Shown here in pieces: positions 54,113-54,945 of a stretch of DNA of 64,000 nucleotides (its first letter is position 1; every line of letters starts with the position of its first letter). The DNA is from Alphaproteobacteria bacterium. GTDB lineage: Bacteria > Pseudomonadota > Alphaproteobacteria > TMED109. The DNA lies in NCBI GenBank assembly GCA_021296265.1, contig JAGWAT010000005.1, positions 1 to 64,000 on the forward strand, given 5' to 3'. The notes under the pieces were generated by a model. The model was not told the origin of the DNA. It searched no databases and was given only the letters and a program-made list of their open reading frames with translations. A program made the position numbers and the translations under genes.

Positions 54113-54742
54113 CTAGGCGACGGGGGCCAGTTCTTCAGCCTGTAACTCGGCTTCCTGCACCGGTCGAAGCAGTTCCTGCAGATCTTCCCTGGGTGAGTCG
54201 GGGTTTAACCAAGCGTCAAAATCAGCGCGACCGATGATGGCCGGCATGCGATCGTGAACACGACCCACGAGGCCATTGGCCGCCGTCGTCACGACCAGGC
54301 AACCCGTCGCCGGGCCCTCCCCATTGGCCGAGCGCAGGGGCTGATAAATTCCGGCAAACGCCAGATAGCCGTCGTCAGAGGCCCGGAATTTCCAAACGAT
54401 CTGCGGGCCTTCTTCCGGCATGCCCCATTCGTAGAACGCATCTGCCGCGATCAAACACCGACGGCGCTGGAAGGATTCCTTGAAAGAGGGGTTCCGGGCA
54501 ACGTTCTCGGCGCGGGCACTCGCCACCAGGCCCGAGGAATCAGGACGTTCCGACGGAATTCCCCAATACAGCACCGCGGCGCGGATCTGCCCCTCGGCAC
54601 TCCGGCCACCAGCAAGGACCTCCGTCCCCGGAGCGATTTCCGCATTCGGTTCCGGGACCGACCCGTTCGGGTCACCAAACAGGTTCCGCCGGGCACCGGC
54701 GGGATCGGTCAAGCTGTATCGGCCGCGCATAGGGTTAGACAT
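54113..54742 (-). CDS. SRAP-domain protein (YedK/HMCES family) lacking the catalytic Cys2
   Basis: SRAP proteins crosslink to abasic sites in single-stranded DNA through the Cys directly after the initiator Met. Here the start reads MSNPMRGRYSLTD: the normal MCGRYSL is replaced by MRGRYSL with four extra residues in front. Other family features remain: RCLIAADAFYEWGM with the Glu, and GRVHDRMPAIIG with the His. The usual Asn-Ala-Arg segment reads ASARAENV, so that Asn also appears changed. ATG 54742 has GGAG eight bases upstream. At 209 residues the fold looks complete, but crosslinking chemistry should be lost or altered. Confidence 0.85.
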   Translation of the reverse strand: MSNPMRGRYSLTDPAGARRNLFGDPNGSVPEPNAEIAPGTEVLAGGRSAEGQIRAAVLYWGIPSERPDSSGLVASARAENVARNPSFKESFQRRRCLIAADAFYEWGMPEEGPQIVWKFRASDDGYLAFAGIYQPLRSANGEGPATGCLVVTTAANGLVGRVHDRMPAIIGRADFDAWLNPDSPREDLQELLRPVQEAELQAEELAPVA

Positions 54743-54945
54743 AATTGAACTCCGTGGATGGGTCAACGAATTCGGTGCCGCCCGCGACGCCGCACCACGG
54801 CCGGACAGCGGATTGCCATTCGGTGCGGTCTAGCGATACCGGCCGCCTAGCCGTCCGGTGCCCCCAGATATCTTTGTACGCCTGTTTTCCGCCGAACATA
54901 CCTCAGTCGAGAATTCGGCCCACATCGGCCGCTCGGCCGCCTACA

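Follow-up and report, generated by a model that had tools for sequence, protein, structure and literature searches.

A SRAP-family protein without the cross-linking cysteine in one clade of an alphaproteobacterial genus

The SRAP gene, its start and its neighbourhood

The window analyzed is the whole stretch of 64,000 nucleotides at positions 1 to 64,000 of contig JAGWAT010000005.1 (assembly GCA_021296265.1), from an Alphaproteobacteria bacterium. It holds a SRAP-family ORF whose product begins MSNPMRGRYS (given as MSNPMRGRYSLTD... and MSNPMRGRYSLTDPAG...), and the features of this gene are collected in Table 1. The Pfam family PF02586 (SRAP) was matched over residues 5–204 with 141 bits, against a curated cut-off of 27.1, and the sole NCBIfam match was PRK09951, with a score far under its cut-off. 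An AlphaFold2 model (77 sequences) reached a pLDDT of 90.9 and a pTM of 0.89, with values below 50 at residues 1–3 only. When compared by Foldseek and VIA-align, the model gave Z values of 20.6–24.4 with all 15 of the listed SRAP entries, the next unrelated structure scoring about 2. The PDB relatives include Escherichia coli YedK and human HMCES (Z of about 22 for both), and residue 6 of the model was aligned structurally with residue 2 of the YedK and HMCES chains.

Table 1. Features of the SRAP gene, in window positions
Feature	Position	Strand	Remark
SRAP-family ORF, 209 aa, Cys2-less	54113..54742	(-)	PF02586, E 3.7e-41
Shine-Dalgarno-like GGAG	54750..54753	(-)	7 nt before the first ATG; kept in 7/7 species
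First ATG	54740..54742	(-)	Likely start (MSNP extension)
Second ATG	54728..54730	(-)	Normal SRAP start position; Shine-Dalgarno at the usual spacing absent
Codon 6, CGC (Arg)	54725..54727	(-)	Catalytic Cys2 position; TGT in sisters
Arg66	54545..54547	(-)	Near-invariant Trp expected; change genus-wide
Codon 75, AGT (Ser)	54518..54520	(-)	Near-invariant Asn75 position; AAC in sisters
Glu105	54428..54430	(-)	Kept, in FYEW
His163 (= YedK His160)	54254..54256	(-)	Kept, in VHDRMPA

The locus was compared across seven genomes of the genus (the window genome and G001–G006), the named relatives being MAGs labelled Alphaproteobacteria or Rhodospirillales, and the SRAP gene was found at the same place in all of them. 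On one side, rplY, pth and ychF face the SRAP gene, and on the other lie a monooxygenase-like and a dapE-like gene. From reading of their translations, we take the SRAP neighbors to be ychF, which is convergent, and two genes that resemble a flavin monooxygenase and dapE. SOS-associated SRAPs adjoin umuCD, imuAB-dnaE2, dinB, lexA or ku genes (PMC3765255). None of these was found among the neighbors of the SRAP gene, nor was any DNA-repair gene adjacent to it. The exact alphaproteobacterial LexA-type box, GTTC-N7-GTTC, was likewise absent upstream of and near the gene, and its count in the window was only slightly above chance. Each of the seven genomes also has one or more additional SRAP matches of a Cys2-bearing type. 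The second SRAP of the window genome (L002, G000:C9:1-2265), of the MCNLYS type, has Cys2 but a broken frame, and intact copies of this type occur in related genomes.

The 30 nt ahead of the first ATG contain only five variable columns among the seven species, and between the two ATGs only one change, Pro to Ala in G004, alters the protein. Together with the conserved GGAG, this makes the first ATG the likely start in both clades described below. Nothing resembling a Shine-Dalgarno sequence was found at normal spacing upstream of the second ATG in the seven species, so the start at 54730 that the first-pass annotation had named as part of a possible refutation was not supported. Removal of Met by MetAP is poor when Arg follows (30% at most; PMC12930335), and a second-ATG start would thus rarely expose residue 6. 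A longer protein from an upstream TTG was rejected because several changes there would be non-synonymous. As an observation in its own right, the stretch 54743-54787 (TTCGTTGACCCATC..GGAGTTCAATT) ahead of the start is conserved across the genus above the rest of the intergenic region and is possibly a regulatory element.

Catalytic residues in two clades

In the founding analysis of the SRAP family, by Iyer et al. in 2013, Cys2 was described as absolutely conserved, with the conserved Asn hydrogen-bonding its backbone (PMC3765255). In the sequence alignment, the Cys2 column held Cys in 69 of 70 other SRAPs and Pro in one, and the window protein has Arg6 at this position. The Asn of the NARxE motif corresponds to Ser75 (VASARAE), the Ala being the neighboring residue 74. 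The catalytic Glu105 is present in its FYEW context, the equivalent of the catalytic His160 is His163, and R8, R77, E105, W106, H163 and R165 are all unchanged. The first-pass annotation, which had proposed the replacement of Cys2 by Arg and the change of the conserved Asn to Ser or Ala, with the Glu of FYEW and the His of VHDRMPA remaining, was thus borne out by sequence, with the Cys2 replacement also seen in the structural alignment, and with the Asn change settled as Ser.

The orthologs fall into two clades. Clade A (the window, G001 and G006) has proteins 97% identical to each other, with MSNPMRGRYS and VASARAE, CGC at codon 6 and AGT at codon 75 throughout. Clade B (G002–G005) shares the locus and synteny and is 82–83% identical to clade A, but retains the Cys and Asn75, with MSN(P/A)MCGRYS, VVNARAE, TGT and AAC throughout. 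In a quick tree, clade A had a support of 95 and A plus B of 100, and the branch of the SRAP group of the genus was long (2.02, support 100). Since the family-level relatives with a readable N-terminus also have Cys2, the Cys was lost in clade A, most simply once. The protein begins MSN in every one of the seven species, the sisters having MSNP, or MSNA in one, and a start at the first ATG would likely put the Cys of the sisters at position 6 as well. The displaced N-terminus had also been noted from the sequence, and MSNP does precede the Arg; as a part of the Cys loss, however, the displacement did not hold, because the Cys-bearing sisters share the extension, which is thus probably older than the loss.

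When the genus orthologs were compared with the 70 other SRAPs, C2R and N75S were found to be the only losses confined to clade A at columns conserved to at least 95%. Clade A alone is without C6 (equivalent to Cys2, 99% conserved) and N75 (99%), and given the hydrogen bond between the Asn and the Cys2 backbone, this joint loss took both members of a contacting pair. N35 (99% conserved), P64, W66, K84, P116 and W136 are lost in both clades, and the C-terminal VN tail typical of most cross-linking SRAPs is missing in all seven orthologs. The conservation of the near-invariant Trp and Asn35 suggests a structural role for them in SRAPs, and the genus-wide loss of Trp (W66 to R), Asn35, Pro64, Pro116 and the VN tail may have changed or even abolished DNA binding.

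Within clade A, the SRAP gene showed a dN of 0.017, a dS of about 0.295 and an omega of 0.058–0.059, with an omega of 0.036–0.092 in clade B. For ychF in clade A, dN was 0.032–0.042 and dS 0.23–0.27, so that the dN of the Cys-less SRAP is about half that of its neighbor. Constraint on the Cys-less gene is thus similar to that on its Cys-bearing sisters and exceeds that on ychF. Such strong purifying selection on the Cys-less form (dN/dS of about 0.058) marks a working gene and not a pseudogene, and the fixation of C2R and N75S in three distinct species (dS of about 0.3) rules out a sequencing error. CGC, and not the TGC that an error at codon 6 would have hidden, is common to the three species.

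Proposed function and alternatives

Known SRAP function rests on the covalent chemistry of Cys2. The thiazolidine cross-link is not formed by SRAPs without the Cys2 thiol; YedK C2A, or YedK with a blocked N-terminus, makes no cross-link and strand cleavage results, with strong dependence on E105 and weaker dependence on H160 (PMC9436759). The AP lyase activity of YedK C2A proceeds via a Schiff base, made in YedK by the position-2 amine, and N75A alone had only a modest effect, at an internal site (PMC9436759). With Cys2 and Asn75 gone and the four-residue MSNP extension in place, the window protein lacks the free Cys2-type amine and thiol needed for a thiazolidine. By analogy with YedK, stable thiazolidine capture of abasic sites has almost certainly been lost, and the sequence, the structure and the comparisons among species all lend strong support to the absence of covalent capture suggested in the first-pass annotation.

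The window protein resembles YedK and HMCES in domain, fold and the equivalents of Glu105, His160, Arg4 and Arg77, and differs from them in the absence of Cys2, Asn75, the near-invariant Trp and the VN tail and in the added MSNP extension. With the YedK C2A mutant (PDB 8d2m) it shares the lack of Cys2 and the kept Glu/His pair, but it has an Arg that hinders Met removal, an extension that displaces the amine, and Asn75 is also lost. There is about an even chance, in our judgment, that it is a functional SRAP paralog which no longer captures abasic sites covalently. It has neither the nucleophilic thiol (Cys2 to Arg) nor the Asn that positions it (Asn75 to Ser). It still has the SRAP fold, two conserved Arg residues (R8 and R77) and Glu105 and His163, the pair for ring opening. 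According to this proposal, the protein would bind abasic single-stranded DNA reversibly and the Glu/His pair would open the ring, ending in release, hand-over or slow beta-elimination and not in a protective cross-link. For the window protein we infer the absence of cross-linking, and likewise that it binds DNA, opens the ring and cuts the strand. Counted in favor of the proposal were the confinement of C2R and N75S to one clade, the omega of 0.058–0.059, the unchanged E105, H163, R8 and R77 and the confident fold, and counted against it were the genus-wide residue losses, the displaced position-2 amine and the absence of a LexA-type box and of an adjacent DNA-repair gene. Non-covalent binding and lyase activity, both raised at first reading, are plausible from the YedK analogy, but the 'reversal' chemistry raised with them found no specific support.

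A true abasic-site lyase would arise if the first ATG were used and Met removal left an N-terminal Ser (SNPMRGRY) whose amine reaches the site, makes a Schiff base and cuts the strand. MetAP follows a side-chain size rule (PMC12930335). Met-Ser should be among the efficiently cleaved pairs, the first ATG with its conserved Shine-Dalgarno sequence and the MSN of all seven species fit this reading, and both C2A and C2S forms of YedK make Schiff bases, C2A being a lyase (PMC9436759). This reading nevertheless seems unlikely, as the amine would lie four residues past the normal one, in the part of the model (residues 1–3) with pLDDT below 50, and Asn75, the anchor of residue 2, is lost. A repurposed, non-catalytic protein, such as a module binding other proteins or other ligands and keeping Glu and His for structural reasons, is about equally improbable. 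Several near-invariant SRAP residues and the C-terminal tail were lost genus-wide on a long branch, and the Cys2-bearing SRAPs of all seven genomes mean that paralogs could do the covalent capture, although the copy in the window genome is frame-broken. Against repurposing, none of the seven species has changed E105, H163, R8 or R77, despite a dS between clades of about 1.

Much less credible than either is that the gene is decaying or misassembled, as two lost key residues and the broken frame of the second SRAP copy (L002) might suggest. Both changes occur in three species with an intact frame, a dN/dS of 0.06 and a dN below that of ychF, and a sequencing error or pseudogene was rejected on the dN/dS and the three-species sharing. 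Equally hard to credit is a cross-link that persists via another cysteine, such as Cys96, or via chemistry of Arg6. Cys96 is conserved in most SRAPs, the window protein included, but a thiazolidine requires the 1,2-aminothiol that an N-terminal Cys provides, and the cross-link does not form in SRAPs whose Cys2 thiol is missing (PMC9436759). Returning to the reversible-binding proposal, this small bacterial group keeps a Cys-less SRAP that probably recognizes damaged DNA without locking on. The Cys-less SRAP and its Cys-bearing orthologs at this locus (about 83% identity), which share the MSN(P/A) start and the losses of the Trp and tail, form a clean natural pair for the study of SRAP roles beyond cross-linking.

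Replacement of Cys2 in other SRAPs

A search of open-licence papers found no report of natural SRAPs lacking Cys2. In a phylum survey based on a 200-genome sample, for which a part of the matches of those genomes was taken, residue 2 of the 76 readable SRAPs was Cys in 70, Thr in three, Pro in two and Ser in one. Among SRAPs from viral contigs, Cys was found in all 77 with a readable position 2 (78 rows less one reference row; three more matches were unreadable). Arg at Cys2 with an N-terminal extension was seen only in clade A among the phylum sample, the viral contigs and the family relatives. Thr or Ser at Cys2 with His at Asn75 occurred as a group in one non-alphaproteobacterial family. 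Its members L188, L190, L192 and L193 start MTSRYALF or MSGRYALF, carry His at Asn75 and lack the His160 region, and their close sisters L182, L185 and L187 keep MCGRYALF. The SRAP-like L189, L191 and L194 have no recognizable N-terminal Cys motif, and Glu105 is changed to Val, Leu or Ile.

Within one alphaproteobacterial family, 17 of 149 genomes were found to carry a conserved C2P subfamily (L222–L239; e.g., L222:1501-2109 +), with an M/V-P-G-R-x-F/Y-L start and Asn75, Glu105 and His160 kept. An in-frame stop a few codons upstream in many members means that Pro must be residue 2, and a model (pLDDT 92.8, Z of about 22 to YedK) aligned residue 2 with Cys2. Pro, Thr and Ser at position 2 are small and permit Met removal; Arg does not. 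Met removal would leave Pro at the N-terminus, as in Fpg with its catalytic Pro1 (PMC5422863), so this subfamily may be a natural abasic lyase. This 'MPGRxFLT' subfamily shares with the window protein the lack of Cys2, the VN tail and the Trp, but differs in a Pro2 that permits Met removal, a kept Asn75, no extension and a separate branch of the tree. We raise only tentatively, as less probable than the reading proposed for the window protein, that natural SRAPs have repeatedly abandoned suicide cross-linking through Cys2 replacement and become non-covalent readers of abasic sites or true abasic lyases. If so, clade A would be the extreme case, having lost nucleophile and anchor alike and keeping under selection only the Glu/His pair for ring opening. 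A lone Cys2-to-Pro SRAP (MPGRFAII) was also found in Methylocapsa sp. S129 (L056:6007-6732 +), and it lay among ordinary Cys2 SRAPs in the quick tree, apart from the C2P subfamily.
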